Source: a virus. From it: a DNA stretch of 29,170 nt. The translations under genes were made by a program, and so were the position numbers. Where the stretch lies: positions 1 to 29,170 of the IMG/VR virus record IMGVR_UViG_3300027833_000175. One strand, 5' to 3'. Positions 4,099 to 29,170 of this stretch are shown here, one piece after another. The stretch's first letter is position 1; the number at the start of each line of letters is the position of its first letter. A model generated the notes under the pieces. The model searched no databases and had not been told where the DNA came from. It worked only from the letters and a program-made list of their open reading frames with translations.

Positions 4099-4120
4099 AA
4101 TCTCTCCATAATATTACTAT

Positions 4121-4149: not shown

Positions 4150-4152
4150 GTG

Positions 4153-5094: not shown

Positions 5095-5121
5095 ATATTA
5101 TTCTCCTAAACGTACAGTATT

Positions 5122-5150
5122 AGTATACTATACTTTCTTAATTATGTCAA
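5122..5150 (-). promoter_or_regulatory. Sigma70-type promoter TTGACA-17-TATACT before the 313-aa gene
   Basis: On the minus strand TTGACA (5150-5145) is followed after 17 bases by TATACT (5127-5122), one mismatch from the -10 consensus. The -35 box contains the TGA stop codon of the upstream 302-residue gene, so stop and promoter share bases. The predicted start is near 5115, about 20 bases before the ATG at 5094, with AGGAGA between. Confidence 0.75.
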
Positions 5151-6055: not shown

Positions 6056-6086
6056 GCCTTACTTCCTCTTTATATACGTGTTTTAA

Positions 6087-6094
6087 TATTTATA
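6087..6094 (-). promoter_or_regulatory. T4-type late promoter TATAAATA before the 302-aa gene
   Basis: The minus strand reads TATAAATA exactly, the late-promoter octamer recognised in T4 by the gp55 sigma factor with the gp45 clamp. It overlaps the TAA stop of the 492-residue gene and lies 31 bases before the ATG at 6055. Initiation would fall near 6080. No -35 box is needed for this promoter class and none is visible. Confidence 0.65.
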
Positions 6095-7568: not shown

Positions 7569-7592
7569 GTTTCAACCCTTTAATTATAACTA

Positions 7593-7600
7593 TATTTATC
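7593..7600 (-). promoter_or_regulatory. Candidate late promoter GATAAATA before the 492-aa fibre gene
   Basis: The minus strand reads GATAAATA, one mismatch from the T4-type late octamer, immediately after the stop codon of the 605-residue gene and 24 bases before the ATG at 7568. The position matches the exact octamer before the 302-residue gene, which raises its credibility. Confidence 0.45.
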
Positions 7601-11442: not shown

Positions 11443-11445
11443 CTA

Positions 11446-12051
11446 TTATACTCCTGACAAACTTTGTACACGCACTGTATAATCAATTTGAACTAATCTG
11501 TTTAAACTTTTTTGTACAGGGTGGAAAATAACATGTGTGATTAATCTACCGTCGCCAGTTGGACTATAACTTTTAAGACCTAATTCATCAAAAACATAAA
11601 GGTTAGTAGTATCTGTAGCAGTATCAAATGCATCTTGACCTTCAGGTTCTCCGTAATCTAATAAACAAGTTACAACAATGTCTGTGTAGTTTGTTCCGCT
11701 AACATGACGTGTTTCAATTTTATTTCTTACAGGATCTGTATTACTTGTACTCCTGTCATCTACTACTTTAGTAAATGTTTGGTTGTACAAACTAGCATTT
11801 GTTCCTGTGCTATTTGGTGTTAAGTATGTAATAATACCTGTTGGGTCAACACTTGTGCCGCCATTACCAAAACTCATTTCGTATATCATGCCTTGTCCTT
11901 GATTAGCAAGGCTTTCAGCAAGTGCAATACTCATATTCTCATAGTGGATAGCATTACGTTTATCAACATACACTTCGCCCGATCTGGGATCGTGTATTTT
12001 AATGTGACCGTTAACTACTACTCCACTTTTATCATTTAATTTATCTGTCAT
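11446..12051 (-). CDS. Putative virion structural protein of marine T4-like phages, 201 aa
   Basis: A 201-residue protein with recognisable segments VVVNGHIKIHDPRSGEVYVD (~11-30), NAIHYENMSIALAESLAN (~33-50) and IYEMSFGNGGTSVDPTGIIT (~56-75). The His-rich helical stretch and the GNGGTSVD loop look conserved; I recall similar uncharacterised proteins beside the fibre genes of other marine myophages. The C-terminal half is beta-rich, ending VQIDYTVRVQSLSGV. It sits between the giant virion protein and the collar fibre, the interval where T4 encodes gp9-gp11 connectors, so a baseplate-to-fibre connector role is plausible but is inference from position. Expression is probably late, from a candidate octamer overlapping the upstream stop. 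The ribosome site GAGAG is moderate. Confidence 0.8.
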   Translation of the reverse strand: MTDKLNDKSGVVVNGHIKIHDPRSGEVYVDKRNAIHYENMSIALAESLANQGQGMIYEMSFGNGGTSVDPTGIITYLTPNSTGTNASLYNQTFTKVVDDRSTSNTDPVRNKIETRHVSGTNYTDIVVTCLLDYGEPEGQDAFDTATDTTNLYVFDELGLKSYSPTGDGRLITHVIFHPVQKSLNRLVQIDYTVRVQSLSGV

Positions 12052-12073
12052 GTTTTTCTCTCACTGCTACTTG

Positions 12074-12081
12074 TATTTATT
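12074..12081 (-). promoter_or_regulatory. Candidate late promoter AATAAATA before the 201-aa gene
   Basis: The minus strand reads AATAAATA, one mismatch from the late octamer TATAAATA. It overlaps the TAA stop of the giant gene and lies 22 bases before the ATG at 12051. Its placement matches the other two late-type elements. Confidence 0.45.
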
Positions 12082-15000
12082 TAGGTAATTCCGTTGTTCT
12101 TGCTTTAAGAAACTTCGCAACGTCATTTTCTGCATCTGCAAGGCTTTCTCCTGTTTTAGTCCATGCTTGTCCTACACGTCTTATCACTGTTACCTTTTGA
12201 TCCTGTTCTGGTGTTACTGCTAATTCCAGTGTACTGCCACTTAAAGTAAACTCTACTGGTAATGTAACATCACCTTCATCACTATCTTGGGCAATAAACC
12301 TAGTTACAAAGTTTCCACTAGTATTTTTAGTGTCTACTTGATAACTACTTATCGTATTTTTACGAAGTCTTTGACCAGCAACAAACACTTCAAATTCATT
12401 CACGCCTTGTGTAGGAGTAAAGTCTAATTCATATGACGCTGTTGTACCATCTGCTGTAAACACCTGTGTAAGTGTTTGATCAGCATACGGAACGTTTTCG
12501 CCTGGACTTTGATCTCTTACTTCAGTTCCACTAGCAATTAATGCATTTACACCAGTACCTAAAGTACCTCTACGTATTTGACGTAAACTATTTCCTTGCT
12601 TCACGTAGTACTCAATTCTTTCACCGTTAATAAACACAACACCTGGTATTTGTTTCTTTTTACCAGGCTCTGGTAAGTTAGATGCATCAACTAGTTCAAT
12701 TCTAGTATCCCACCAATTAAGTACCTGTGCTAACTTATACTTATTCGCATTGTCCAATCGCTTGTAGTGAACGCGGTTCAGTATGTCTTTAAACTGTCTA
12801 AATCCAAATCTGTGTATTAATTGTTCTTCACCAAATTGTATAAATTCAACTTTATCATTTGCACTTAGTTGCTGTATAATTTTTACATACATTTGATCTT
12901 CAGTTACATAGTAATCAACATTTGGTGCTAACTTTGTGCCGTTTAGTACTACCCAAACATATTCTGAATCTTGTGCTTTGTGTCGTAGTTTGACCTTTCC
13001 GTTACTAAAGTTAATATACTCTTTGTAATTTGCTGTTCCCGGTACTAATACTGTACGATTTACTAAGTTGTATTTGATACGTTCAATGCCTTGTACATCA
13101 TGATTACTAAACGAAGTAATCTTAATTGTTTCACCTAATGCTGGTGCTGTATCAAAGTAAATTTTGCTTCTGTCTTGTAAGAATTTTGTAGTACTATCTG
13201 CACCAACTCCTATATACCCAAATGCATACTCGCCGTCTGCACTAAAGAACACATCTAGTTTATCATTAACTGACGCAATACCTGCTGATAACTTAACACT
13301 GTTGTTTGAACTATCCCACCTGTATTGAATATTCTTTACAAGTAATTCGCTGTTTAGATAAACTTCAACATCTTCGCCTCTAACGCTGTTAGCAAAGAAC
13401 TGCCATTCTTGGATTTGATACTCTCTAGTTGCCGCATTTGTAATTACAAAGTCAACATTATATCCTGCATCTAAAATATTGTTGTTTACTTCAACTATAG
13501 CATTTTGTGCAGTCGGTAATCCACCAACTAAAGCAGGAGCAACATCAAATATTGTTGTTGAACCGTCACCTACTAAAGTCTGTACATTAGTTGCACTAAA
13601 GTTAGTTGCTGTTGTATAGAACAATCCATAGTCTACAACTTGTCCTGTTTGCGGAGCAGTATCAAACGTAATAACAAACCATTCGTCTGTTCCTTTAGAT
13701 AATGCTGAAACAATTGGTTGTCCATCAATAGTAACATAATGACTTACGCCTGTTTGATATTTTAAATTAGTTACATATGTATTTGTACTTCCATCTGCAA
13801 CAAATTTATTAATATCTAAAATCTTTTGTCCACTAACTCCTACGCCGACTATACTTAATGCTTTACCTGCTGTTGGGGCTGTAGTAAAAGTAATTGTATC
13901 ATTAACGTAATTTATTGTGTAACTTGTATTAGCAACTGGTATATTATTAAGTGTTACAAATACTGCTTCATTATTATGTGGATGAATACCAATATTATAT
14001 GTTTGAGTTGTTCCGTCTGTTGCAAAGAACTGTGTCTGTACATTACTTGTGCCGTCATCTGGTCTGTGGAATACTTTAATGTCTACAGTGTCAGCAATTT
14101 TACCTGGAACTAATTCTTCCGGGCCTGTTGTTGTCATCGGAGTAATAAATCCATCACCGTCTACAATAATTTCACTTGCGTCAATACCTTTAGCATTACT
14201 ATATGATAATGCACCGCCAGTTAATTCAGTATCATAACTAAATGGATCTGGACGGAAACTACCGTCACTAGTTGTTTTTCTAATAATAAAGATATCGTCG
14301 TCTTTACTAGTTATTCCAAAGTTTTGAATATTAAATTCAATTAACGCACCGTCACCTGTAATACTAGCCATAACTGCATTAGGGTTAGTAGGATTACTAG
14401 GATAGTTAGCATCATCAAGTCTTACATTATTCTTGTATACGTTATACACAACTCCATCTTCTAACGGAGTGTCCCATTGTAATACTGCTGTTGATCCATC
14501 TAAGTAGAATATTAAATCTTCATATGTTGAATCGTAAAGATCATATGCATCAACACCAAAGCCTTTAGTTTCAAATCCACCAATACCTGTAAAATCAAAA
14601 CTCTTAACTTCAACTCCACCAAAGTCTACACCTTGCATTAGTTGCGAAATGTCTTTACCAATCATTCCGTCAATAGGTTTATAATACGATTGCACTCTAT
14701 CTTGTGCTGTTAATAGATCAGGTGCTAATTCATAATCAATTTTAACTGTTTTAGTTAGTAATGGAGGTGTAGCAAACGTAACTTTACCAATTTTTCTAGT
14801 ATATCCTTTAGTAACATCAGTATAATTATTAAACGTATATTGACTTTTTAATAATTCTATATTATCAATATAAATTTTTATTTTTGCACCATTTAAATTC
14901 ATTGGCCATTTTAAATTATAAATCGAAGTTACATTATCACCTGTAAATGTTTCTGTTCTTGCAACTTCTAAGTAATAAGGAATACCACTTACTCTATCAA

Positions 15001-18000
15001 ATCGTGATATAATATGTGTTCCTCTAACTTTGCCATTACCAAGCACTGCTCTAGCACTTGCTATTGTTCCGCCATCCTCAACACTACCGTTTAATATAAC
15101 CTCAGGTGCTTTCAAATATCCAGTGCCTGAATTAGTTACTTCAATCTTTGAAATTTTACCTGAATTTAAAAATGCTTTTGCTGTAGCACCGCTACCGCCA
15201 CCACCTTCAATACTAACTATTGGAGGTAATGTATATTTTGATCCTGCATCACCAACTGAAACTTCTTTTATTTCATACCCACTATTCTGTAACCAATGCT
15301 TGTCTGGATAAGAACTTGTACTATTTGGAATATTTGTAAGCAGATTGTTTTTAACTCTAGCAGACGAACTAGTAATCTTCTTCATACCAAAGTTATATTT
15401 TGGTGGTAAATCAAAGTCTGTTACTACACTATTAGTTGGATCTGTTTTTTCATAACTAGATACATATTCTCTAATTTTTGTTTTGAATGGTTTAACTTCG
15501 TTAATATAATCTTGGAAGTTTTCAATGTTATCATTTTTAAATGTAACTTTTTGTGCTAGGTCACCAATATTGTGTTGTGCTTTAATAAACGAAGTTTTAA
15601 ATGCCCAATCAATATTAGGTTGCTCACTAAACGCATAACGCAAAGTAGCAATAAACAATTCGTTATAATGTACTTCTAAGTTATCTATTAGGATATGATC
15701 TCTAAGAGTTTCTAAAACTACTCGTGATTCTGTTACAGGTTGATTATCATAAAACGCTGTATCAAATGTATCAGTATCAAATCCTGTTCTATTGGCTGTT
15801 GTATTATATAATTTTTCACTAAATTGGATTGTTGCATTTTGTTTACCAACAACTTTATAATTTTGTGTGTAATCTTCAGTTTGTAGATCTGCAAATTTTT
15901 CTAATAGTAACCAACCACCTGATCCTACATTGGAAATTTTAACAGTATCACCTATATCATTCTCAATTGCAGTTAATTGATAACTAAAATCAATTAACGA
16001 GTTGATTTCAGTAAATTCGCTATATCCGGTTTCATACCAGTTTGCATAATTCCAATATAAGTTTGTATCAAAACGTTGACTTACTGTTCTATTCCATTTT
16101 GTACCATTGTAATTATACATTGACCATTTATTTGCAACATTTATATCACTTGATACTAATACACTAAAGTTTCTTGTTACAAGTACAGTAGTGTCGTCAT
16201 ACCCGGTACCAGGATCAATAATATTAACTGTTATAATTTGTCCTAATTCATTAATAGTTGTTTCGATAACAGCATCTTTACCAATGCCTGACACAGTTAT
16301 TTGCGGTCCTAAGCGTACTCCGCCAACTGTCGAAACGTATGTTGGATCAACATATCCTCTTCCTGAATTTGTAATAGCAACACTTGTAATTTTACCATCA
16401 ATTATTGTTGGAGTTAATATCGCAGTAATTCTTTTAGCAATACCAACAAAACTAAGATCTTCATATGTATCAATTTTTACATCATATGTACGTGAACTTG
16501 CAAGTGGTGCTGGATCGCTCTTAGTTAAATCAGCAATATTAAACTCGTCTACGATAATATGATTTATTAAAACATCATTTACTCGTTCAATTACTTCTTT
16601 GTATGCTTCAGACTTATTAATAAACATAGATTGTCGTGGATTATTATTAATTCCATACTTGGCTTTAGCACTAAGTTTTGGATCTGGTACTATTCTAAAT
16701 TGTGAATCATAACCAATTAAACTATCAAACCATTTACGTTCAATATCTCTATTTGGTTTACTAGAACCAATGCCTTGTGTTAGCATTTGGTATTCGTTGT
16801 GAATATTTTGATCTACATTATCGAGTGTAAAGTAACGTAAATTAAATGCAACATTATTACTACTTAATAATGCCTCGCAATTAAACAACACAAATCTATC
16901 TTTAGCCATTAAGCCTGCAAATCTATGACCTTGTCCAACTGGATCTTCAATTAAACGCTTTACATCATATGCTGTAATACGTCTACCTTCTACATTAGGC
17001 ACAACACGTTTGTTTGCTACCCAATAAAAATATTTTGGCTTGTTAGTTTTTGAAATACTATCCCACACTAACCTTTGTGAATATATACTATCACCGTATC
17101 TACTTGTTCCACTAACACCTGCGGCAATACCTGCTTCGCTGTCTGCTAAAATGTCCCATTCGCTTGGTAGGATATCACTTTCAACCCATTCGTAAACTTC
17201 TACACTTGTACCAGGAAATACTTCGCCCCAGTAATTTGTTTGATATGTGATATCATTTTGCTGATAATTATAAAATTTAACTGCACTTAAATCCCACCAT
17301 AATTTTCCAACATATTCTCTGCCCCATGCATTAGTTTCATCAATAACTACAGTGTCATTGCCTATACTAAATGCCGCTGGATCATAATGTGTTTTATAAG
17401 AAATTTCTTGTTCTGCTGGTCCTGCAATTTTTCCTTGGACAGGATCAATGTAATCTAAATCTTCAATAAGTGTGTTTGTTTGTATATTATATAAAAATGC
17501 ACTTTTAATTTTATCAATATTTACTTGATCAATTGGACTTCTATGAGTCTTCCATGCCTTAGCACCGATTGTTTTTCTAAAGTCTACAATCATACCTTGG
17601 TATGTTGTTAAATCTGTTACTTCAGGAATTGATGTATAAACATGATTATTATTCATGATTATGTTTTTACCAAAGTTAACGGCTAATGGTTCATCGATAA
17701 CAAATTCTTGTGCAAACAATAATGATTGATTAATTCTTTCATACATGAAAATAACACCACTATCCATATTCATTGATTTAAAGTTTGTAAACTCGTCATC
17801 AAATACAGTAGTAAGGTTATCAAATGTAGTTGGTATTTCAATATCACCATTTAACGATGTTACTGCTAATTGATTGCCATCAAAGTTTAAGTAAGCACCA
17901 AATTGCTCTGCTTGTTCACCATTTGGACTAAACACTTCTTGAGTTAGTGTGAATGTTCCGTTTACAAGTGTGTATACATACACCTTACCTTGGTCTTTTT

Positions 18001-21000
18001 TCTTATCATCATTAAATGGTTCACCGATTGCAATCATTTCACCATCATTACTAACACTTACACTATCGCCAAATCCTGTAAATGATCCAGTTGATAGGTC
18101 TTCGTATGGTGGTTTAATAACTTGTGCTACTGTCATTTGTCCTTGCGGCAATCTTCTATATACAACAACTACACGCTCACCTGTACTGTCATTTCCTTGT
18201 ATACGCGAACTTACTAGTAATACTTCACCGTCTTTTGATTGATCAATTTGCCTTGCAAAATCTCTAATTCCAAATTCAGGATCAAATACAGTTTCGCCAA
18301 GAATAGCATTTGTGCCGCTAGTTGGTACAAACCCAACGTGTGCTGTGCCATTTGTTACAAGTTCCCAATCTACTGCAATAAATGCAGAACCACTAGCAAT
18401 ATTTCGTGTTGCTTTATAAAGACTATCTCTATAATCTACAATTTCATCCTGTTTATAAAATACTCCTGAATCAAATTGTCCTCTATAGTTTGGATCAATA
18501 TCTAATTGCCAATCATATGAACTAGTAACAGTATCTACAACTACACTACCGTGTTTAACAAAATGTATACTGCCTGAATTTGATTGTGTGCCTGCACCTT
18601 TAGATGAAACAAGTAATCTATATAAATTATCTACTTTAGTAAATTGTACAGTATCGCCAAGATTAGCAAATGCTTTTCTTTCAGGTACTGTAAAATGAGA
18701 TTTAACTTTAAACTGTATTTTATCATTTAGATCATAGACACTAAACATACCTTCTTGTTCTAATCCACTTGCTAAGGTACCAGGTCCTGATGCAATAGGA
18801 AGATTATTAACTAATTGCCAGTCGTTATTATTTGATGCTGGAATATTTGCTTCACGAGATATACCCTGTAATGTTGTTTCATTATAGAACCAATATTCAA
18901 AATCTGAAAGTTCACTTATGCTTGCATCTGCAAAATTACTAGATTCTTGTATAACAATAATTTTACCTAAGCGTGTTCCCGAAAGTGAAACTCCACTTAT
19001 TCTACCCATGTTACGCTTAATAGCACCACGTACACGTAAAATATCTGATGTTTCATTATAGTCGTTACCTTTACTCCAAGTGCCTGTTACAGTTTTTACA
19101 TAAATCCTAACTGTGTTAAACTGTCTTTTGTAGAAAGTAATTATTGCAGTTGCGCCAGTTACGTTATCTTCAACAAGGTCGCCTACAATAGGTTCAAATG
19201 GTAATTGCTGTGCTTGATCAAATTGATCAAACGTAAAATCAATGTAACCGTCCCATAGATCATAAACTGTATGTTGCTTATTAAACAACTCTTTGCTCAT
19301 TGCAGTATCAGTAAAATCAGTATTTCCGCTAATTGTATCAACTATCATTCTAAACGTATCACCGTTTGATAGTGTATCAGTAAATGTCTTATTACCTCTC
19401 AAAGTCCACAGTGGGCTTGATTGTAGTGCAAATACTTCTAGCGGGTCACCTTCATATGTTAGTGTTTGTGCAAATGACGCTTGATCTAGCAAAGATAATG
19501 TAGCACCAGAATTAGTAGCATCGTCTAATGCTAGTTGTCTAGTGGCTGTAATATTATGATAAATGTTTGCTTGACTTCTGCCGCTAACAGTTGTAAGTAA
19601 ATCTTGATATACTAACCCGTGTCCAGGATCAACAAAAATATTTGTACTTTCATCACTAGTTTGATATTGTGGTGTAGTAATATACCAATAGCCGCCTAAG
19701 TTACTTGTTAAACTTACATAATCTTCAATGTAATCACCAATACGTATTGTACCAACAAATACTGATCCTGCTTGCTCAAAAGTTCCATTTACGTCGGATA
19801 GATAAACCGTACACGTTGTTAAATTGTTTGCTACATAAACTATTTCTCCACTAGCAACACTACTTGAAAGAGTATCGCCAACTTGTGGTAAGTTAACAAA
19901 ATTTTCAAGTACTAATACATTGTCAACTTTATATTCAATGTTGTGTGTACCTGTAATAAATGCATTGTCAATGACTGGGTACTGTCCGTCAAATGGTTGT
20001 ACATCAGTAGTACTTCCCTGGATGCTAAGTTTACTATGGTTGTTCCATGCTAATACAATATCATCACCAACTGCACTTCCTTCGTATGCATTAATCGGTG
20101 CTCTTATTAACATGTGACTAACTAACCTATCGTTAATTTTATAATCACCTGTTTGTAATAAGTTTATTAATGTACTATCACTATCCGGTACAAGTTCTAA
20201 ATATGAATCAAAACTTCCAAATTGTATTGAGCCAGTTGCAGGATCAATATTTTGAATTGCTTTATATAAGTTTGGACCGTACTTTATAATTTGACTTTTT
20301 GTATATGCAACACCTTGTTGGAATTCACCTTTGTAAAAACTATAAGTGTTTGACGCTGTTGGAGATCCTACTGCTAAGTATGTTCCGTCTGGGCTAAGTG
20401 CAACACTCTCACCAAAATTCATTGACGTTGACGGAGTACTACCATCGTATGCATCTGCAACATTCGTTGGTGCTTCAATAATTTGATCTAATATAAAGTT
20501 TGTACTATCATTCGGACGAACATAAATGTGTACTTCGCCGTTGCCTTTAAACGGTATGCCAACTGCCATTTTGTTGTTAGCATCATTAACGCTTATTGAA
20601 TGTCCAAAGCCATGCTGAGTACTATCAAGTTGTAATGAACTTAGAATTTGTTGATGCTCTGCATACACTGGCGTGTTTTTAAGTACTGTCCACTTTTTGT
20701 TATCATCATCATCGATCCATAACAATTCGTCTGTACTTAAATTAGCAGTAATATTTGCATTTGCATCATTTACTGTTGCTGTACGCTGAGTTGTAAATAT
20801 AGTAATAGTCCCGTTGATTACTATAGTTTCGTCAATTTCCATCCAATCATTATTAGTAGTTGTAAATGATACTTTATTTCCTTCTACTTTAGTTGCTTTA
20901 TAAAATCCATCTAGTGTAGTAAGTGCTTCTGTGTTAGCATTGGTTATACCAAACACGTCACCTACTGCAATTTGTCTTGCAGTAAAGTTTAATGTTAGTG

Positions 21001-24000
21001 TAACTGTGTCACCAACCGGAACAACTGTTTCAATACGCAATGCTGTTTCAGTGTGTTGTACAACATCCCATGTTTGATTATCAGTTGCTACCCAAATGTA
21101 ATCATTTTTATTAACATCGTTAATTGAAAATCCAGTAATACTATCTTTTGTAAGTACTGCACGACTAACATCTTCGCCTGTTACATAACCTACAGTTTTA
21201 ACATATTCATCGTTAGTATATTTTGTAGGTATTTTGTTTGTATCATAATTATCTGGTTTTAAGAATACATCATAGTTTGGGATTCTGTAAATTAAATCTG
21301 TTGGGGCACTAGGTAATGTTTCGACTAATGCAATCGGTTGTGGAGATAAATTAAATTTAGATTCATCTATTTGCCATTCAATTTCTTCAAAATTATCTGT
21401 TGCACCGTATTGGCTATTCTTAACTGCCCATTCTTCATAAAAATCTACTGACTCTTTATCAGCACTAGCCAAAGCATCAAATAGTTTATCAATACTATTA
21501 CGTGTTCCTTTGTCTGCTATAAATCCTTGATAAAATTTATACTGTGACACATCATCGTTAATAATATTTTCTAAGTATTGACGCTTTTGATAACCTATCA
21601 AATGCTGTGCCATTTTTTGCTGTTCAGTATCAAAGTTGTCTGAGTCAAGATCGTAAAAGTCTGTAAACTGATTAACTCTATAATCAAAGTTTGTATATAA
21701 TCCTGCTTCGGGCTTGTTAGTTAATCTGTTCCATTCAGCCGGTGAAAACTTTTCACTGCCAACAACCTTGCCAATAGCAGAATAATAAAATTCCTTGTAA
21801 CGCACTGTATCGCCTATAGCATAATCTTTGTATGTTTGCCATTCAGTAACTTCTGCTTGATCATAAACAAATCCTGGAATATTTAAACTACCGTCCCATC
21901 CTGCAGTTCTATAACCCAATACCTTAATACGATCCTGTCTATACCCCGATGCTGGAGAATAAATTACATCTTTAAAATCAGATAAATTATCAAGTATAGC
22001 AACGTGTTCAACTTGAACTAATGGAAGTTGAACAAAGTAAATTCCTTCAGCAGTGTTTGCTAAATTAATTGAAAAATCATTTGTTCTTCGTGTTAACCTT
22101 GTATACTCTGGGTCTAAAGGTTTTCCTGCACTATCTTGAAGTGAATAATCGTAAAAGTTATCTGTTAAATTGTCAACTACTGCATATGGTCTGCTAAATC
22201 TCAGTTGATTAGCACTAGGACTTATTGCAATAATAGTTCCTGCCGCCCAATTTTGTGTAGTCCAATATAAAAACTCTTTTGCACTATATCGCCAATCTTC
22301 AACAATTTGTGATTCCTTGTTATAATAATCAAACTTAAATCCTGCTGTATCTAACTGTTTTGCATATCCTAATACAAAGTCAATAACTTCTTGTATGTCA
22401 CTATAAATTGTTCCGTATGGAACTTCAGTTATAGTATCTTCAAAGTTTTTACGGAATAATGCTGTTGCTCCGCCGCGTACTGGTAAGACTGGAATCTTAG
22501 AAAAGTTTTCAGGTGCAAAAGTCGAAGTCGAAGTATGATCTACAATAACCTTGTAAAACCCTTGAGTATGTCTTACATACTTGTTAACCGTGTATTGTTT
22601 ATTTGTATCCCACTCTACAAATGATTCACTAACACCGCCTACATTAAAGGCCGGGTCACTACTCCGTGCTTGTGCTTTTTGTATTTTGAATATAGGCCTA
22701 TTACGGTCATATCCTCTTACTACATAACCATAACTTTGTTTTTCTACAATTACACCACTATAAGAAATTGTGTCAATAGGTGAACTTCTGTTTAAGAAAA
22801 TTTGGAAGTTTTCTTTAGGTAAAAATACATTACCCTTGTTAAATGGAGTTCTGCTATCTAACAAAAACTTTAATTTATTGTTATCAGTAAACGCACCTAA
22901 TTTTGTACCTAGTTGATACTTTAAGTTGCTTACTTGTTCTTTATAATCATCTGTTGATATCTGACTATTTGATAGTGTGTAATTTATAATATAATCAACT
23001 AGTCCACTAGTATAAACTCTAGTAGTATCACTATAAACATTACTAAAAATTAAATCTTTTAATGATATTGAACGTTTAGATTCATTATAGATAATTTGTC
23101 CGGATAAGTTTTTACTAATTCTTGAAGTGTCCCACGCAAGTGACATAAATTTAGCAGGGCGATTTAACAACCATGATTTAATAATACTAAATGCATAATC
23201 ACTACTGTTTCTCCAAGCAGTTTCAGTCGGAGCATGATCACCGAATTTAAATCCTAACTTTGTATAAGATGAAATATATTCATTTGCATAGTTTGATTGT
23301 AACGGACTTAATAAATTACCAGTTTCGTCAACAGGTATGTGATTTGTTAATCCCGGTCTAACATAGTTTTGTAAATATTGCTCAGGCTTTCCGGGCTCTG
23401 CAACCTTACCTACTTCAAGGTCTCCCCAAAGTATTAAGTTATTACTAGTATACGGTGCTGGACCATAAACAGTGTTCCACCATGTTGGTTTTTCTCCAAA
23501 GCCTAACATCTTCCACGGAGTTGTATGTGGAGTATCTGTATCATATGCAGTTTTATATACTGAACGCCAAAATCCTGTTAATTTTTCGCCGTTTGGTCCT
23601 GACATATATGAATAATTGTAAGTAAAACTATCAGTGGTTTCCCAAAAAGAATTTGAAGTGTAATCTAATCCACCTAATGATTCGTTCCATTTAACAAAAT
23701 CACTAATTAAAACATTATTAATATTTTCAATAGAAACTTTTGTAGATCGATTGGCTCCTGGAATAAAACTATCTATATCAAGCATACCGTTGTCGTACGT
23801 AGATTTAATATTGTTGTAAATTCTTCTTTCTAAATCTAAAATTAAGTTATCTCTATAATCATTAAATGCAATAGTTCTACTGCCGTCATGACCAATAATA
23901 ATTTTAGTTGGAGTTCTATAAGTATCATCAATAATAATTTCAGGAACAAATGCCGGATACAACCCTAATTTTGTTGGAGTGCTTGGAATAAAACATCCAT

Positions 24001-26899
24001 CTGTACTTTCGTATTCAAATATTTCAATTAAGTCGCCGTCTACTTTAGTTGCTGTAATTACAGCAAAACCGTCGTTATTAAAAGTGTAATCTCTGCCGTG
24101 TGCTAATTGTACTCCATTTTGATAAATGGTTACTGCTTTATTACTTAACGTAGTTTTGTTAAATGTTTCTGATAAACTAAAGAAAGTATTTTCAGTATCA
24201 TATACTGTAAATTCTAATCGTTTGTTTCCTGAGAACGCAACCATATCACTAAAGTAAAACGGATCATTTATAGTTTTATTACTAACTGCTTGTTGTAAGA
24301 TTTTATCAACATGTGTTTTAATACTGCCATCATAACCTAAGTTTCCAGCAACTTGAATAAACGATCTTTTAAATGTTCTAAACTCGTTTTTAGCATAATC
24401 AAGTGCTTTTATTACGTTTGCTTCTTTTGTAGTAATATGATATAACGGGTTATTAATTGGGCCTGCATGTTGCACAAATTTCTTACCAACAGTATTAGTA
24501 TTGCCTAAACTTCCTAAATTACTATTGCCTGGAAATATTCCTGCAAAGTCTGGCAAGTCTTCAATCATACTAAACACATGGTCATTAACTTCACCAAGCG
24601 TAAACGTAGTTAAGTTTACATTATTTGGATTATGTTCTAAGTTAATTGGAAACTCATAAAACCCATTTGCATTTTTCTTTGTATCGGAAGACGTTCTTAG
24701 AATAACTGTATCGCCTATATTTAATGCTGTATTAAATACTACATATGCTAATCCGTCTTGTCGTGAAATAGTATAATCAAAATTGTGTGTATTATTAACA
24801 AGTACACTACAAGTTAAGTCATTTAAATTGCCTGCATTTTTGTATACATCAATTTCAAGTTGACTAACTGGAGTTACAATATCGTACTGTCTAATTACTT
24901 TTTGTGTTGATTCTGTCTTTGCTTTTTCCCAGCCGTTTTTATAATCAAACGCATTTAACGAAGTGTACTTTCTTAAAAATCCAGTATCACTCTTTACTGT
25001 TAACACTGACGTAGATTCTTGATGTGTAAATGTTTCTGTTAATAAATCAAAGTTAAATGTAATGTCACCTACATTAGTTAATGCACGATACGTTATTGGA
25101 AATCCTAGTTCTGTATCTACTGTTCCTGTACCTTGTTTATAACTAAAAATGTTGTTACCATTAAAAGTTGTTGTAGTATACGTTGTTGTATCTGAATAAC
25201 TTACGCCACTTGCATCAAACAAATCAAATAATGGTTGTTGATTTACTTTAGTTTTTAATTGTCCTAAATTCCATTTTGTACCATCATAATAATAATGCTT
25301 ACCTGCATTACCAGTACCTCTTTTAATTAACACTACTTCATTTTCTAATGGTGTTGCATCAGTATCTTCTATTAATGCAATTTGAGATGTTTCAGAGTTA
25401 TGTTTGATAAATTGAACTTTATAAATTTTACCAGTTGCTCTAACATCTTCTTCAGCAGTAAACAGAATACGCATACCAGTAGTAACATCAACACCGTCAA
25501 TATTAAAACCTGTTGAACCTTCTACGTCCGAAAAAATATCTTTTGTAACTGTATCGATTAAATCAATATCATTTTTCTTTTCAGTACCAAAATTAAATAA
25601 TTTTAATCCACTGTTAAATTCAATAATTGGACGCTTTGCTCGCTGTGCTTGATTTACTGTCGCACTTTGTCCGTTAATTTCTTCACTTTTTTCAATAACT
25701 GATTTATGATACCATTTGTTATTTCTGCTCCATGCATTTTTATCTGGAGAGTTTCTATTACTAACAATATAGTCTTTTGTAGCACTATAAGATGCCGCAT
25801 TGCCAAAAGGTAAACTATCAAAATTTTCAGCATCAAACTCAATAGGTACATCAGTAGCGTATGATAATGATATAACAAGATCGTCTGTGTTAACTAAATT
25901 AATAGAATCGCCTACGCCTTCTACAATCCAATTACCAGTTGCATACTGTATAGGCTCAACTGTTCCTATAAAGTTTAATTTCATACCATTTAAAAGTTCT
26001 ACACCTTTTGATGTTGTGTATTTTGCTTTACCAATAATTTCTGTGCTGACATCAATTTCTGTTGCTTCGTCGACTTCCGCAATTCTAATAATACCGCCGG
26101 AATTAATATTGTTACTATTTTGATAATACAATCTAGTCGGAGCATTAAATGGCACAGTGAATGTTAATACGCCTTCTTCAATGTTATCATTACTAATACC
26201 TGTTTCGTATATAGTATCCGTATCTAAACTGCGTTCTGTACGGATAGTAAACGGCATGTCTGTTGCACTAATATCAAACTTATAAGTTTGACCTTTATAT
26301 AATTCTATTGTAGGATTTTGTGTTAGGTTACTGTTAATGACATAAGAAAGATTATTGCCATTTTGAATACTTGTAACATTAAATGTACTTGTTACTTGAG
26401 TACTTTGCCCAGCAACATTAATTGCTGTAGGTCCATTTGGTAACCAATAATATTCACGGAAGTTAGTTAACATATCCCAATTTAGATTTGGGTTCCAAGA
26501 ATAAAATTCAGCACTGTTTAATAAACTATGATTTTCTGTATTGCCAGAAAATGCTTTAATTTGATTAATATAATCATTATAGTCTTTATAAAAGGTTACA
26601 TTATCATACAAATCTTTAGAAAGCACTGCAGGCTCTAGTTGATAGTTAGTTCTATCAGTACTTACATCGCCAACATAATTGTCATTATTTCTATAAGACT
26701 TAGCAGTTTTTCTGCCATAGTACCCGTTTAATTTTTGTGCAGTACCTGGTTGTAAAATTTGATCAAGTGTTGCATCTAAAAACTTATTATTTTTTAATGT
26801 ACGAAAGTACTTAGGTAACAAGTTATTTGAATTAAAAGTCTTTTTAGTATCGCCGTTTGTTGGCAACGGATTTTCATTTTGATTATCATCGTAAGACAT
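12077..26899 (-). CDS. Giant modular virion structural protein, 4940 aa
   Basis: One unbroken frame of 14,823 bases. The N-terminus (LLPKYFRTLKNNKFLDATLD, ~27-46; NGYYGRKTAKSY; FYKDYNDYINQIKAF) and the end (ENDVAKFLKARTTELPK) look like the termini of a virion protein family I know from marine T4-like phages. Along it are four modules of carbohydrate-binding type (Y-x5-VxY-x3-YxA) near residues 1433, 1691, 2199 and 2815. FG-GAP-like beta-propeller blades are near 2096, 2162, 2885, 2943, 2998 and 3075. Gly-rich NSGxGY repeats lie at ~3486-3570 and ~3880-3960, and about seven beta modules (DGSTT-F, V-x-NN, ITF-TAP) at ~4270-4880. No membrane span or signal peptide is evident. The start overlaps the upstream stop by one base (TAATG). 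Its position after a gp6-like gene corresponds to T4 gp7/gp8, suggesting a baseplate-peripheral adhesin or scaffold. Exact function is unknown. Confidence 0.85.
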   Translation of the reverse strand: MSYDDNQNENPLPTNGDTKKTFNSNNLLPKYFRTLKNNKFLDATLDQILQPGTAQKLNGYYGRKTAKSYRNNDNYVGDVSTDRTNYQLEPAVLSKDLYDNVTFYKDYNDYINQIKAFSGNTENHSLLNSAEFYSWNPNLNWDMLTNFREYYWLPNGPTAINVAGQSTQVTSTFNVTSIQNGNNLSYVINSNLTQNPTIELYKGQTYKFDISATDMPFTIRTERSLDTDTIYETGISNDNIEEGVLTFTVPFNAPTRLYYQNSNNINSGGIIRIAEVDEATEIDVSTEIIGKAKYTTSKGVELLNGMKLNFIGTVEPIQYATGNWIVEGVGDSINLVNTDDLVISLSYATDVPIEFDAENFDSLPFGNAASYSATKDYIVSNRNSPDKNAWSRNNKWYHKSVIEKSEEINGQSATVNQAQRAKRPIIEFNSGLKLFNFGTEKKNDIDLIDTVTKDIFSDVEGSTGFNIDGVDVTTGMRILFTAEEDVRATGKIYKVQFIKHNSETSQIALIEDTDATPLENEVVLIKRGTGNAGKHYYYDGTKWNLGQLKTKVNQQPLFDLFDASGVSYSDTTTYTTTTFNGNNIFSYKQGTGTVDTELGFPITYRALTNVGDITFNFDLLTETFTHQESTSVLTVKSDTGFLRKYTSLNAFDYKNGWEKAKTESTQKVIRQYDIVTPVSQLEIDVYKNAGNLNDLTCSVLVNNTHNFDYTISRQDGLAYVVFNTALNIGDTVILRTSSDTKKNANGFYEFPINLEHNPNNVNLTTFTLGEVNDHVFSMIEDLPDFAGIFPGNSNLGSLGNTNTVGKKFVQHAGPINNPLYHITTKEANVIKALDYAKNEFRTFKRSFIQVAGNLGYDGSIKTHVDKILQQAVSNKTINDPFYFSDMVAFSGNKRLEFTVYDTENTFFSLSETFNKTTLSNKAVTIYQNGVQLAHGRDYTFNNDGFAVITATKVDGDLIEIFEYESTDGCFIPSTPTKLGLYPAFVPEIIIDDTYRTPTKIIIGHDGSRTIAFNDYRDNLILDLERRIYNNIKSTYDNGMLDIDSFIPGANRSTKVSIENINNVLISDFVKWNESLGGLDYTSNSFWETTDSFTYNYSYMSGPNGEKLTGFWRSVYKTAYDTDTPHTTPWKMLGFGEKPTWWNTVYGPAPYTSNNLILWGDLEVGKVAEPGKPEQYLQNYVRPGLTNHIPVDETGNLLSPLQSNYANEYISSYTKLGFKFGDHAPTETAWRNSSDYAFSIIKSWLLNRPAKFMSLAWDTSRISKNLSGQIIYNESKRSISLKDLIFSNVYSDTTRVYTSGLVDYIINYTLSNSQISTDDYKEQVSNLKYQLGTKLGAFTDNNKLKFLLDSRTPFNKGNVFLPKENFQIFLNRSSPIDTISYSGVIVEKQSYGYVVRGYDRNRPIFKIQKAQARSSDPAFNVGGVSESFVEWDTNKQYTVNKYVRHTQGFYKVIVDHTSTSTFAPENFSKIPVLPVRGGATALFRKNFEDTITEVPYGTIYSDIQEVIDFVLGYAKQLDTAGFKFDYYNKESQIVEDWRYSAKEFLYWTTQNWAAGTIIAISPSANQLRFSRPYAVVDNLTDNFYDYSLQDSAGKPLDPEYTRLTRRTNDFSINLANTAEGIYFVQLPLVQVEHVAILDNLSDFKDVIYSPASGYRQDRIKVLGYRTAGWDGSLNIPGFVYDQAEVTEWQTYKDYAIGDTVRYKEFYYSAIGKVVGSEKFSPAEWNRLTNKPEAGLYTNFDYRVNQFTDFYDLDSDNFDTEQQKMAQHLIGYQKRQYLENIINDDVSQYKFYQGFIADKGTRNSIDKLFDALASADKESVDFYEEWAVKNSQYGATDNFEEIEWQIDESKFNLSPQPIALVETLPSAPTDLIYRIPNYDVFLKPDNYDTNKIPTKYTNDEYVKTVGYVTGEDVSRAVLTKDSITGFSINDVNKNDYIWVATDNQTWDVVQHTETALRIETVVPVGDTVTLTLNFTARQIAVGDVFGITNANTEALTTLDGFYKATKVEGNKVSFTTTNNDWMEIDETIVINGTITIFTTQRTATVNDANANITANLSTDELLWIDDDDNKKWTVLKNTPVYAEHQQILSSLQLDSTQHGFGHSISVNDANNKMAVGIPFKGNGEVHIYVRPNDSTNFILDQIIEAPTNVADAYDGSTPSTSMNFGESVALSPDGTYLAVGSPTASNTYSFYKGEFQQGVAYTKSQIIKYGPNLYKAIQNIDPATGSIQFGSFDSYLELVPDSDSTLINLLQTGDYKINDRLVSHMLIRAPINAYEGSAVGDDIVLAWNNHSKLSIQGSTTDVQPFDGQYPVIDNAFITGTHNIEYKVDNVLVLENFVNLPQVGDTLSSSVASGEIVYVANNLTTCTVYLSDVNGTFEQAGSVFVGTIRIGDYIEDYVSLTSNLGGYWYITTPQYQTSDESTNIFVDPGHGLVYQDLLTTVSGRSQANIYHNITATRQLALDDATNSGATLSLLDQASFAQTLTYEGDPLEVFALQSSPLWTLRGNKTFTDTLSNGDTFRMIVDTISGNTDFTDTAMSKELFNKQHTVYDLWDGYIDFTFDQFDQAQQLPFEPIVGDLVEDNVTGATAIITFYKRQFNTVRIYVKTVTGTWSKGNDYNETSDILRVRGAIKRNMGRISGVSLSGTRLGKIIVIQESSNFADASISELSDFEYWFYNETTLQGISREANIPASNNNDWQLVNNLPIASGPGTLASGLEQEGMFSVYDLNDKIQFKVKSHFTVPERKAFANLGDTVQFTKVDNLYRLLVSSKGAGTQSNSGSIHFVKHGSVVVDTVTSSYDWQLDIDPNYRGQFDSGVFYKQDEIVDYRDSLYKATRNIASGSAFIAVDWELVTNGTAHVGFVPTSGTNAILGETVFDPEFGIRDFARQIDQSKDGEVLLVSSRIQGNDSTGERVVVVYRRLPQGQMTVAQVIKPPYEDLSTGSFTGFGDSVSVSNDGEMIAIGEPFNDDKKKDQGKVYVYTLVNGTFTLTQEVFSPNGEQAEQFGAYLNFDGNQLAVTSLNGDIEIPTTFDNLTTVFDDEFTNFKSMNMDSGVIFMYERINQSLLFAQEFVIDEPLAVNFGKNIIMNNNHVYTSIPEVTDLTTYQGMIVDFRKTIGAKAWKTHRSPIDQVNIDKIKSAFLYNIQTNTLIEDLDYIDPVQGKIAGPAEQEISYKTHYDPAAFSIGNDTVVIDETNAWGREYVGKLWWDLSAVKFYNYQQNDITYQTNYWGEVFPGTSVEVYEWVESDILPSEWDILADSEAGIAAGVSGTSRYGDSIYSQRLVWDSISKTNKPKYFYWVANKRVVPNVEGRRITAYDVKRLIEDPVGQGHRFAGLMAKDRFVLFNCEALLSSNNVAFNLRYFTLDNVDQNIHNEYQMLTQGIGSSKPNRDIERKWFDSLIGYDSQFRIVPDPKLSAKAKYGINNNPRQSMFINKSEAYKEVIERVNDVLINHIIVDEFNIADLTKSDPAPLASSRTYDVKIDTYEDLSFVGIAKRITAILTPTIIDGKITSVAITNSGRGYVDPTYVSTVGGVRLGPQITVSGIGKDAVIETTINELGQIITVNIIDPGTGYDDTTVLVTRNFSVLVSSDINVANKWSMYNYNGTKWNRTVSQRFDTNLYWNYANWYETGYSEFTEINSLIDFSYQLTAIENDIGDTVKISNVGSGGWLLLEKFADLQTEDYTQNYKVVGKQNATIQFSEKLYNTTANRTGFDTDTFDTAFYDNQPVTESRVVLETLRDHILIDNLEVHYNELFIATLRYAFSEQPNIDWAFKTSFIKAQHNIGDLAQKVTFKNDNIENFQDYINEVKPFKTKIREYVSSYEKTDPTNSVVTDFDLPPKYNFGMKKITSSSARVKNNLLTNIPNSTSSYPDKHWLQNSGYEIKEVSVGDAGSKYTLPPIVSIEGGGGSGATAKAFLNSGKISKIEVTNSGTGYLKAPEVILNGSVEDGGTIASARAVLGNGKVRGTHIISRFDRVSGIPYYLEVARTETFTGDNVTSIYNLKWPMNLNGAKIKIYIDNIELLKSQYTFNNYTDVTKGYTRKIGKVTFATPPLLTKTVKIDYELAPDLLTAQDRVQSYYKPIDGMIGKDISQLMQGVDFGGVEVKSFDFTGIGGFETKGFGVDAYDLYDSTYEDLIFYLDGSTAVLQWDTPLEDGVVYNVYKNNVRLDDANYPSNPTNPNAVMASITGDGALIEFNIQNFGITSKDDDIFIIRKTTSDGSFRPDPFSYDTELTGGALSYSNAKGIDASEIIVDGDGFITPMTTTGPEELVPGKIADTVDIKVFHRPDDGTSNVQTQFFATDGTTQTYNIGIHPHNNEAVFVTLNNIPVANTSYTINYVNDTITFTTAPTAGKALSIVGVGVSGQKILDINKFVADGSTNTYVTNLKYQTGVSHYVTIDGQPIVSALSKGTDEWFVITFDTAPQTGQVVDYGLFYTTATNFSATNVQTLVGDGSTTIFDVAPALVGGLPTAQNAIVEVNNNILDAGYNVDFVITNAATREYQIQEWQFFANSVRGEDVEVYLNSELLVKNIQYRWDSSNNSVKLSAGIASVNDKLDVFFSADGEYAFGYIGVGADSTTKFLQDRSKIYFDTAPALGETIKITSFSNHDVQGIERIKYNLVNRTVLVPGTANYKEYINFSNGKVKLRHKAQDSEYVWVVLNGTKLAPNVDYYVTEDQMYVKIIQQLSANDKVEFIQFGEEQLIHRFGFRQFKDILNRVHYKRLDNANKYKLAQVLNWWDTRIELVDASNLPEPGKKKQIPGVVFINGERIEYYVKQGNSLRQIRRGTLGTGVNALIASGTEVRDQSPGENVPYADQTLTQVFTADGTTASYELDFTPTQGVNEFEVFVAGQRLRKNTISSYQVDTKNTSGNFVTRFIAQDSDEGDVTLPVEFTLSGSTLELAVTPEQDQKVTVIRRVGQAWTKTGESLADAENDVAKFLKARTTELPK

Positions 26900-29170
26900 T
26901 AGTAATTATATCCTCCACCACTTGATCCACTCGATCCACTTGATCCACTACTTGAACTACTGCTTGAGGACATAATAGCACCTGATGAACTAATTGTACC
27001 TGCTTGCGATGCTGAACTTGTAACCCCTGTATTGGTTGTTTCTTGACTTGCTGTAATAACATTGCCAGTTGCCTTTAATTTACTTGCTGTAATACCATCT
27101 ATAATTTCAACATTTTCAACTGTTGCTGAACTTATAAACACTTCGTTTGATTCTGATTTAATTTCATATAAACTACCAAAGGATTGACTTTGTTCATTTG
27201 GTACAATAACAATACTAACAATATCCGGAGTCATTTGATTCATAATATATGTTGAAAGTTCTGAGAAGTAAAAAGACTCTCCAAACTCCCAATTATCTAA
27301 ATTAAAGTAAACATTGATTGCTTCAATAACTCTCGACTTAACATCGTTATTATTAGTAACTACGTCAGGGTTGACTACTACTTTAAATGTTGCTTGCAAA
27401 CTTGTCTCCGCTGATGTGCCAAACAAAGGCTTATATTTTACAGGATGATAAATTATTTCATCACTAATTGATTTAATTTTACCTAACTCAACTCCGTATG
27501 TGCGATACATTTCGTCACTGCTCGGTGGCAATGGTTCTGTTGTTAGGTTACCTTGTAAGTATTGTCTGTATGCAATATCATATGTTCGTGTAAGCAAATA
27601 CGAATCCATAATATTACTTGCTGACGGGTCAATACGTTGATTGTAATCAGCACTGTGTAAATATCTAAATTTAAGTCCTGCTCGACCAATATATCCTCTA
27701 TAGTCTTTAACAACGGTTAAGTTTTTCTTTGCGGCGTCTAGTTTATAAAATAATTGAGTATCCATTGTAAAGAATATTTGTCCTGCAGTATATGCAGAGT
27801 ACGCACCAATTCCACCTACAGTTGCTTTTACTTGAATTCCTTCAATTGTGTTATCAACATATCTATAATCTTCTACACCGTCACTAGTTGAATATTTCTT
27901 TTGAAAGATAAACTTTGTACTAGCATTTGTAGTTTCGTCAACAATGTCATCAAAGCCTTGTGGATTATCAATGACTCCGTCGTCGTCTGCATCAAAGAAA
28001 CTAACTTCGATGCGTTTACTATCAACATAGCCTTCTGCATCTCTATATTCTTTTACAATTTCCCAATTATAGTTTGAAGTAAACGGATTAGACACATCTG
28101 GTTTGTTATTAATATTTAAAACTTCAATTTTATCTTTAATAACTTTACCTGTTTTATTATCATAAATTTTATCAGAACTATCATAATAAAATTTAATCTC
28201 TTTATCACTTTCAAAAACATATCTCATTGTTCTGTAAGTGATGTCATAACGCTCGCCATCTGTTTTAAAATATAGCAACCAACTAGCATCTAAATTTTGA
28301 TTACTCGAGTCACCTGTTTTACCTGTACTAAAATTTGATACACTATCAATGTTAGTTTCAGTAATAATTCTCCATTGACGTGTTTCAACATCATATCGTA
28401 ATCCAAACGTATTTGTTGCAAATGCTTGATCAACAATTTGTGTTTTAACTGCATCTGTGATTACGTTTGTAAGTTTTGGTTTTACTTGCTCTATAATTGC
28501 ATTACTTGGAATCAAGTCGTTTAATACAATTGGTCCTAGTCCTGTTGATCCAACTGTTGTACCATCACCTGATACACTAATAACTTTTGTCCAAAGGTAT
28601 GTAGTTGCACCTGGGTGGTCTGCATCTCCTGACATTAATTCATTTTTATTAGTTGTCATAAAGTGATAACCTTCAGGAGCAACAAATTTAATTAAAGTGC
28701 CTGACTCAACAAATCTTAAATTATTTGCTGTAAATGATCCAACTTTAAATTTAGTATTATTACTATCAGTAATATAACCTGTAGTTCGGTTTGTGTCTTG
28801 AGTAGAACTATTCCAATTAACACCTAAATCAGAAATAAGAATTTTTGTAAAGTTTTCTAAATAATAATTGTATAGTTTTCTATCACGTATAATTGGTTCA
28901 ATAGTATTAGTGATTGCTTGTTCAATATCAGTTGTTGTAACAAAATTAAAATTAGTTTTTAAATTTTTTGTTTCTTTGTAAAGTACGCCGTCATTGCCAA
29001 ACAAATTAGTACTAGAATATTTTCCAGTAGAATCAACTAAGTCAAAATATCTACTAATCCCGCTTGCATTTCTATTAACTGTTTTTACTTTTACAATTTC
29101 TTGGCTAATTCCTAATGGAGCAACATTATAGTCTTCTGCAGTGATCATTCTATTTTGTGTATAGTATGTT
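26899..29170 (-). CDS. Baseplate wedge (gp6/J-like) protein, C-terminal part; 5' end outside the window
   Basis: The frame contains an ATG at 29148 (749 residues from there) but has no stop up to the window edge: the preceding codons read TYYTQNR before MITAEDYN, and no ribosome site precedes that ATG. I therefore treat it as the C-terminal part of a longer protein. The R-M-I-T-A-E-D-Y pattern is typical of the internal hinge in gp6/baseplate-J family proteins. So is the end: FNLDNWEFGESFYFSEL (~608), PDIVSIVIVP and FGSLYEIKSESNEVFI (~654), which matches the C-terminal wedge domain. It is probably part of the baseplate ring. An unusual Ser/Gly tail (last ~30 residues, ending GGGYNY) follows. 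Its stop overlaps the start of the giant gene by one base. Other wedge proteins (gp7, gp8) are less likely. Confidence 0.7.
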   Translation of the reverse strand, partial: TYYTQNRMITAEDYNVAPLGISQEIVKVKTVNRNASGISRYFDLVDSTGKYSSTNLFGNDGVLYKETKNLKTNFNFVTTTDIEQAITNTIEPIIRDRKLYNYYLENFTKILISDLGVNWNSSTQDTNRTTGYITDSNNTKFKVGSFTANNLRFVESGTLIKFVAPEGYHFMTTNKNELMSGDADHPGATTYLWTKVISVSGDGTTVGSTGLGPIVLNDLIPSNAIIEQVKPKLTNVITDAVKTQIVDQAFATNTFGLRYDVETRQWRIITETNIDSVSNFSTGKTGDSSNQNLDASWLLYFKTDGERYDITYRTMRYVFESDKEIKFYYDSSDKIYDNKTGKVIKDKIEVLNINNKPDVSNPFTSNYNWEIVKEYRDAEGYVDSKRIEVSFFDADDDGVIDNPQGFDDIVDETTNASTKFIFQKKYSTSDGVEDYRYVDNTIEGIQVKATVGGIGAYSAYTAGQIFFTMDTQLFYKLDAAKKNLTVVKDYRGYIGRAGLKFRYLHSADYNQRIDPSASNIMDSYLLTRTYDIAYRQYLQGNLTTEPLPPSSDEMYRTYGVELGKIKSISDEIIYHPVKYKPLFGTSAETSLQATFKVVVNPDVVTNNNDVKSRVIEAINVYFNLDNWEFGESFYFSELSTYIMNQMTPDIVSIVIVPNEQSQSFGSLYEIKSESNEVFISSATVENVEIIDGITASKLKATGNVITASQETTNTGVTSSASQAGTISSSGAIMSSSSSSSSGSSGSSGSSGGGYNY
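26922..26948 (-). repeat. Three tandem 9-base repeats coding for a Gly-Ser-Ser tail
   Basis: On the plus strand TTGATCCAC, TCGATCCAC and TTGATCCAC follow one another without spacing, differing at one base. They encode Gly-Ser-Ser units in the C-terminal tail of the baseplate-like protein, inside a longer Ser-rich run (to about 26990). Such repeats can expand or contract by slippage without shifting the frame. Confidence 0.8.

Follow-up and report, generated by a model that had tools for sequence, protein, structure and literature searches.

A 4940-residue member of a virion structural protein family, encoded directly after a gp6-like baseplate wedge gene in T4-like aquatic and jumbo phages

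The window, by which we mean the whole 29,170-nt stretch of viral DNA analysed here (IMG/VR record IMGVR_UViG_3300027833_000175), is filled for half its length by a single open reading frame on the minus strand (12077..26899) that runs from ATG to stop and encodes a protein of 4940 aa, 552.9 kDa and pI 4.8, with four cysteines. Directly upstream, on the same strand, is a gp6-like baseplate wedge gene (26899..29169; PHROG 10646, labelled baseplate wedge subunit, E = 4.2e-135), whose stop codon is overlapped by one base by the ATG of the giant; the same stop/start overlap is present in five related contigs (L002, L004, L006, L007 and L008). Because the gp6-like gene runs off the end of the window, its 749-aa frame is a 5'-truncated piece, and complete gp6-like genes in the relatives that we fetched encode 1138-1319 aa. 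The Ser/Gly-rich end of the gp6-like protein is coded by a 9-bp tandem repeat of 3.6 copies (26918-26949), the one tandem repeat reported by Tandem Repeats Finder in the window.

Downstream of the giant, again on the minus strand, lie a 201-aa gene (11446..12051) and a gene for a fibre-like protein with a Phage Tail Collar domain (9418..11442; PF07484, E = 1.2e-13). The interval 6090-11442 as a whole holds three consecutive fibre-like proteins whose N-termini appear related by eye, and at 6090-7568 a match to the autoproteolytic Peptidase_G2 domain falls just below threshold (24.4 against 25 bits). Two adjacent proteins at 4153-6055 have the same N-terminus by eye and are probably paralogues, and three genes next to the fibre genes, at 1-3797, resemble sugar transferases on inspection by eye; the one at 1-1677 has a sub-threshold Pfam match to DUF6492, and the other two have no Pfam match. 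ARAGORN found no tRNA in the window, megablast of its nucleotides gave no match among named phages, and a PDB sequence search with the giant and the gp6 piece returned nothing at E <= 1.

A stop-free run of this length is far beyond chance: among 200 shuffles of the bases of the window the longest run averaged 126 codons and reached at most 206. Complete frames of 4935-4940 aa, 79-82% identical to the window protein, are present in six other IMG/VR contigs (L002, L004, L006, L007, L008 and L012), which represent four lineages because L006 and L012 (4930 of 4936 residues) and L004 and L007 (4917 of 4935 residues) are near-identical pairs. A further, partial contig (L016) is 94% identical to the window protein over residues 1740-4940. 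Against L008, dN/dS is low throughout (0.09-0.16; 0.088-0.158 in all 17 blocks of 300 codons, the last of 140), ratios that are rough because synonymous distances reach 0.7-1.4; against L016 it ranges from 0.075 to 0.346 across 11 blocks, with its peak at residues 2640-2939. The giant is one intact gene of 4940 codons under purifying selection; the earlier note on this DNA had likewise read it as a single protein. The assembly join feared in that note is excluded by intact, equal-length frames in independent contigs of four lineages and by the uniformly low dN/dS, and even with one of the 185 loci that have a giant-matching ORF, fragments included, carrying the giant as two overlapping ORFs with a junction near residue 3200 (L183:1811-15756), an artefact of any kind is extremely unlikely.

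By profile match the giant is a member of a known but unexplained family, PHROG 10938 (E = 1.6e-293, in four stretches), which is described as 'virion structural protein' and assigned by PHROGs to the category 'head and packaging'. The family includes more than ten named jumbo phages. Searched by tblastn, residues 1-1891 matched 72 named phage records, the long matches belonging to jumbo myophages of Pseudomonas, Klebsiella, Escherichia, Salmonella, Erwinia, Agrobacterium, Sinorhizobium, Salicola, Vibrio and others, and those matches to cyanophages that we saw being short (about 70-80 residues). As annotated, named homologues include PA5oct gp355 (3857 aa), Atu_ph07 gp180 (4449 aa), a Phosso protein (4555 aa), SCTP-2 gp140 (L020:3771-15194, 3807 aa), Vibrio 2.275 NVP2275O_424 (3771 aa), RaK2 ORF070w (3326 aa), 121Q gp582 (3323 aa), GAP32_230 (3341 aa) and CBB_236 (3340 aa). 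Both conserved cores of the window giant (delimited below) are present in these jumbo giants, yet identity is just 22-29% (eight aligned, CBB left out), and at 3.3-4.6 thousand aa all are shorter than the window protein.

The family is larger still among uncultured viruses, with at least 595 confirmed stretches in IMG/VR matching the first core and at least 580 the second, in hundreds of contigs. We examined the loci of the best 80 matches to each core. As the best-matching loci were taken first, the figures given here for length and gene neighbours apply to closer relatives, together with the nine named phages. The 87 complete IMG/VR ORFs represent 71 distinct sequences of 4229-5583 aa (median 4949), 30 of them shorter than 4940 aa, 40 longer and one equal. 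The earlier note had proposed a profile search of marine myophage proteins for equally long homologues; the IMG/VR relatives include homologues as long as the window protein, and the same numbers undo its ranking of this protein among the longer ones: within its own family the giant is mid-range and the claim to exceptional length fails. Nor is it supported that the giant would change the picture of marine T4-like phages in the way then anticipated, given a family already in PHROGs, with more than ten named jumbo phages and hundreds of IMG/VR contigs, and given that the annotations of the cyanophages S-ShM2 and P-HM1 already contain giants directly after gp6. A T4-type gp23 capsid protein gives a long match in four of the six larger IMG/VR contigs that carry relatives, a short match at the contig end in a fifth and none in the L013 contig, and it matches in all five named records searched; in this gp23 sense the group is T4-like.

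In T4 the gene order is gp6, then gp7, then gp8, and the placement of the giant where T4 has gp7 and gp8 holds in so far as a gp6-like wedge gene is its immediate upstream neighbour. The baseplate context is conserved well beyond the window: a gp6-like gene is directly upstream in 90 of the 91 complete homologues whose records extend far enough to tell (74 of 75 distinct), including eight of the nine jumbo giants. The linkage is not absolute, since in the sole exception, SCTP-2, about 93 kb separate the giant from the gp6-like match. Directly upstream of the SCTP-2 giant we observe, in place of a gp6-like gene, an ORF of at least 2242 aa. Compared with T4 gp6 itself, the gp6-like neighbour in the window shows a weak likeness (hhalign probability 13.4%, E = 0.0021, 304 columns), although both PHROG and the annotations of phage genomes assign it to the baseplate wedge. 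Downstream, a homologue of the 201-aa gene directly follows the giant in 77 of 83 complete homologues (64 of 70 distinct), and was not found directly downstream in L015, Atu_ph07, RaK2, 121Q, GAP32 and CBB.

That the giant is a virion protein, as the earlier note called it, agrees with mass spectrometry of two homologues. The record of PA5oct gp355 carries the note 'ESI-MS/MS', meaning that the protein was found in the virion, and CBB_236, which adjoins the baseplate wedge gene CBB_237, is listed as a structural protein with 21 unique peptides and 7.72% coverage in the accessible part of the CBB paper (PMC5259590). In the accessible portion of its text the RaK2 paper (PMC3622015) does not discuss ORF070, and the Atu_ph07 paper (PMC6102473), within the sections available, names gp181 and gp182 as baseplate proteins and does not so name gp180. 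Our search returned no paper devoted to the family, which is weak evidence of absence as subscription journals and preprints fell mostly outside it.

Comparison with the relatives divides the giant into long conserved cores and variable stretches (coordinates of all its parts are on the minus strand). By blastp, an N-terminal stretch common to jumbo phages (residues 26-152, 26444..26824) is conserved, as is the main core, which is also supported by alignment (residues 360-1860, 21320..25822). The second core has two parts, also delimited by blastp (residues 3104-3450, 16550..17590, and 3604-3840, 15380..16090). Within the main core are a CBM_5_12 domain, chitin-binding type 3 (residues 1429-1463, 22511..22615; Pfam 39.5 bits against a cut-off of 26.2), a second CBM5/12-like module (residues 1684-1727, 21719..21850; family HMM E = 1.8e-7), and a segment with a DKGT motif (residues 1781-1816, 21452..21559) that lies in the best-conserved stretch of the whole giant. 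Between the cores, three FG-GAP repeats are detected by family HMM at residues 2097-2117 (20549..20611; E = 1.8e-5), 2161-2186 (20342..20419; E = 1.9e-10) and 2941-2980 (17960..18079), the last of these also matching Pfam FG-GAP_2 at 33.9 bits against a cut-off of 23 (40.7 bits when the piece is scanned alone). The repeats lie on either side of a variable insert of about 670 aa (residues 2190-2860, 18320..20332), where occupancy among 89 non-redundant relatives drops to 0.68, the lowest in the giant. CBM5/12-like stretches stand at both edges of the insert (residues 2192-2216, weak at E = 0.0094, and 2808-2842); of the four stretches of this kind in the protein, that at 1429-1463 passes the Pfam cut-off and the other three are likenesses at the level of the HMM. 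After the second core come a glycine-rich repeat module that is common to cyanophage structural proteins (residues 3873-3940, 15080..15283), a beta module in two copies (residues 4290-4345, with a family HMM E of 3e-5, and 4360-4420; 13640..14032) and a C-terminal module (residues 4691-4799, 12503..12829) that in PA5oct is 43.7% identical at 4698-4784. A DUF2460 match at residues 4299-4349 was discarded (17.6 bits against a cut-off of 30.4).

Variation is concentrated in residues 1860-3100 and after residue 3840, and the long cores, rather than the binding modules, are the best-conserved parts of the giant. Across 12 aligned homologues the block between the cores (residues 1860-3100), which holds the FG-GAP repeats and the insert with its CBM-like edges, ranges from 199 to 1516 aa: it measures 1241 aa in the window, as against 199-201 aa in RaK2, 121Q and GAP32, 262 in Vibrio 2.275, 317 in PA5oct, 505 in SCTP-2 and about 1510 in Atu_ph07 and Phosso. 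Two ideas of the earlier note, that the protein combines several kinds of domain and that it was built by module accretion, are supported by these data, the first through the CBM_5_12 and FG-GAP_2 matches above their Pfam cut-offs, the second through the changing length of this block.

AlphaFold2 predicted residues 670-1865 (74 sequences) with a mean pLDDT of 82.7, in a model whose block means are mostly 60 or less from about residue 1730 and about 44-60 in the DKGT region; residues 3095-4290 (72 sequences) were predicted with a mean pLDDT of 75.0 and a pTM of 0.41. Neither model has a PDB match with E <= 0.001 by Foldseek. In the BFVD, the same family was returned with high confidence (e.g. 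a structural protein of Atu_ph07, with a TM-score of 0.64 when normalised by query length). In VIA-align comparisons of the two models it was mainly small modules that matched. Positions 1-70 of the first model resemble an adaptor-type beta-sandwich (58 residues at 1.5 A, best Z 7.8); positions 880-980 of the second resemble a similar one (best Z 8.6, 70 residues, 1.8 A), with a chain from the T4 baseplate structure 5iv5 among the matches (Z 6.1). Positions 758-802 of the first model, corresponding to the CBM at residues 1429-1463, match chitin-binding domains (Z 6.5-6.7, 44-45 residues, rmsd 1.2-1.3 A), so that the Pfam score and the predicted fold agree in placing this segment in CBM5/12. 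The modelled module at 1684-1727 matches a chain of a receptor-binding baseplate entry of phage Milano (Z 6.4, 45 residues). Z values of this size are common and show no function, and the VIA-align lists barely probe the large cores; the 50 rows listed for each structure comparison contain no recognised gp7 chain.

Precedent for a giant in the gp7 position is provided by cyanophages. In S-ShM2 (L025) the gene after gp6 encodes a 6198-aa protein (5319-23915) that is matched by a T4-gp7 profile at E = 2.6e-5 (18.5 bits, gp7 positions 707-751), and the S-ShM2 gene that is annotated as gp7 (573 aa) matches neither this profile nor the giant family. A 400-aa piece around the match found 478 phage records, among them 'baseplate wedge initiator' genes of P-HM1 (4446 aa), S-CAM9 (3884 aa) and ACG-2014f (4225 aa) and short genes after gp6 in Melnitz-2 (896 aa) and ACP17 (482 aa). 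Comparison of the cyanophage and T4 gp7 profiles by hhalign gave a probability of 90.8% (E = 1.2e-6), rising to 95.2% (E = 2.6e-8) for the trimmed domain with six more cyanophage-type rows. Pelagimyophages and cyanomyophages have been said to lack T4 gp7, with VrlC appearing to substitute for it (PMC7029224, from the part accessible to us); contrary to that statement, a T4-gp7-type domain is detectable in the gene after gp6 in S-ShM2, P-HM1, Melnitz-2 and ACP17. The presence of this domain within the S-ShM2 and P-HM1 giants shows that a gp7 can grow to giant size. These cyanomyovirus proteins resemble the window giant in size, in sharing the glycine-rich repeat and, as observed in S-ShM2 and P-HM1, in following gp6, but differ in having a domain detectably homologous to T4 gp7, which itself has no significant match to the window family; beyond the glycine-rich repeat, no other part of the S-ShM2 giant matches the window giant by blastp or hhalign.

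Two published descriptions also concern wedge proteins, each as given in the accessible part of its source. In S-CREM2 a 5814-bp gene annotated 'baseplate wedge protein, intermediate', directly after an inner baseplate wedge gene, yielded 91 unique peptides (PMC10665884). 'Baseplate wedge 3' of Bacillus phage Vp4 is 831 aa long, against 341 in Deep-Blue, through the addition of carbohydrate-binding domains (PMC11406892), which makes it, by description, an earlier case of a wedge protein that grew by gaining sugar-binding modules, as we propose for the giant, although it is a different and far smaller protein.

For the window family itself, similarity to gp7 is not significant. T4 gp7 (1032 aa) shares with the giant its place after gp6 and a KG motif in the best-conserved stretch, but the giant is five times longer and the two have no significant sequence match: hhalign probabilities spanned 0.1-0.4% when the whole family was compared with T4 gp7 and when two cores and the DKGT region were each compared with a profile of seven gp7 sequences. 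The T4-gp7 profile found nothing at E <= 10 in eight jumbo records and six IMG/VR contigs (fragments), so that no other gp7 is apparent in those records either, and Pfam gp8 (PF09215) is likewise without a match in the eight records, the six contigs and the window protein. S-ShM2 served as an independent positive control for both searches; T4 and Vibrio K491, which both belong to the gp7 profile, were positive as well.

A stronger form of the gp7 interpretation, namely that the giant is a true and very divergent homologue of T4 gp7 whose KG-motif domain (about residues 1740-1865) has been retained while the protein grew by insertions, turns on this one stretch. The gene position is the same, and KG is invariant or nearly so both in gp7 (about residues 711-760 in T4) and, as part of DKGT, in the giant family. 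When cyanophage gp7 is compared with the family profile, the one match reported in 4940 residues falls at the DKGT motif, with a probability of 1.5%; compared with the DKGT region of the window alone, it aligns in the same register with a probability of 14.5% (E = 0.0019). None of these matches is significant. In a sliding-window null of 160 windows (80 of 140 residues along the giant and the same 80 reversed), the DKGT windows rank first and second against a merged gp7 profile (scores of 21.4 and 21.2, the next being 19.7), but third and fourth, behind two reversed windows, against cyanophage gp7, and only 19th and 20th against T4 gp7 alone. Scanned against Pfam and PHROG, the DKGT region matched PHROG 10938 in 37 of 37 members and CBM_5_12 in 4 of 37 (best E = 0.0002), the rest of the matches being at chance level; this includes a Pfam match to the T7 capsid assembly protein (12 of 37 members, best E = 0.011; 15.7 bits in the window against a cut-off of 27.1), which we rejected. 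From sequence, the DKGT stretch at 1781-1816 is a candidate counterpart of the invariant KG of gp7. Common descent with gp7 strikes us as a serious possibility that falls somewhat short of an even chance, and, since the giant has the gp7 position and the sequence tests are not significant, we file it in PHROG 10938 and do not call it a gp7 homologue. This proposal overlaps with the broader reading set out next, and our estimates for the two need not sum to one.

Taken together, these observations are explained best, and with moderate probability, by a baseplate wedge protein that occupies the gp7 position after gp6 in T4-like aquatic and jumbo myophages and has grown through the accretion of surface-binding modules. 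The giant probably works as a gp7-position wedge protein, whatever its descent. Counting against such a role are the gp7 homology tests, none of them significant; the PHROGs category; the Foldseek searches without a PDB match at E <= 0.001; the weak likeness of the gp6-like neighbour to T4 gp6; the unlinked giant of SCTP-2; and a 201-aa neighbour that is missing directly downstream in five RaK2-type and Atu_ph07 records and in L015.

The earlier note had envisaged a long peripheral baseplate arm or adhesin, a role to which the carbohydrate-binding-type modules of the giant may point. As a rival to the wedge reading, this would place the giant on the baseplate, outside the wedge core, with another, unrecognised protein doing the job of gp7. 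Such an arrangement would be natural for a protein with up to four CBM5/12-like modules (one of them above the cut-off), FG-GAP repeats and adaptor-type beta modules; it would also accommodate the eight jumbo records, in which gp8 is undetectable as well, and the SCTP-2 giant, which lies away from gp6. Against it, conservation is strongest in the long cores instead of in the binding modules, and linkage to gp6 holds in 90 of 91 homologues. We judge a purely peripheral adhesin unlikely. Very improbable in our estimation is a structural protein from another part of the virion, for instance from a tail whisker or the neck, whose position beside gp6 would be a coincidence. The 'head and packaging' category of the PHROG would suit such a protein, as would the unexplained tail hairs of CBB, of about 119 nm (PMC5259590). 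However, according to the accessible part of that same paper, such hairs are not described in other RaK2-like phages and are argued to come from genes that are absent in GAP32, and GAP32 has the giant gene.

Returning to the wedge protein in the gp7 position, what we infer of its location in the baseplate, copy number, ligand and functional equivalence to gp7 may be put as follows. Residues 26-1860, which include an insert, and 3104-3840, the conserved cores, would be integrated with gp6 into the baseplate, and the block at 1860-3100, with its FG-GAP repeats and CBM5/12-like modules, would together with the C-terminal region (3840-4940) form surface-exposed modules. These exposed modules, added by accretion, may bind polysaccharide of the cell surface or the environment, or other parts of the tail. 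T4 gp7 is present once per wedge, and thus six times per virion, in a gp6-gp7 wedge complex. If the giant is used in the same manner, about 3.3 MDa of one kind of polypeptide would be arranged round the baseplate, and contact with a surface would be coupled directly to the wedge.

A bolder version of this proposal, which we offer tentatively and regard as rather doubtful, is that wedge and host-recognition layer have become one 553-kDa chain, a gp7-position scaffold carrying an FG-GAP propeller that is split by a CBM-edged insert of about 670 aa. Six copies would then form a 3.3-MDa adhesive rim, covalently wired to the trigger of the sheath and replacing gp7 plus gp8, in a large and mostly uncultured group of phages and in a manner similar to the growth of gp7 in cyanophages (up to 6198 aa). 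A giant gene after gp6 is in any case common across jumbo and aquatic T4-like phages and no oddity of one contig, and the family still goes under the label 'virion structural protein', with no mechanism attached. Our map of core and variable regions marks candidate scaffold parts of the giant and, as distinct from these, candidate receptor- or matrix-binding parts. If the proposal is true, accretion of modules into the gp7 position would be a recurrent route to host range in marine T4-like phages.
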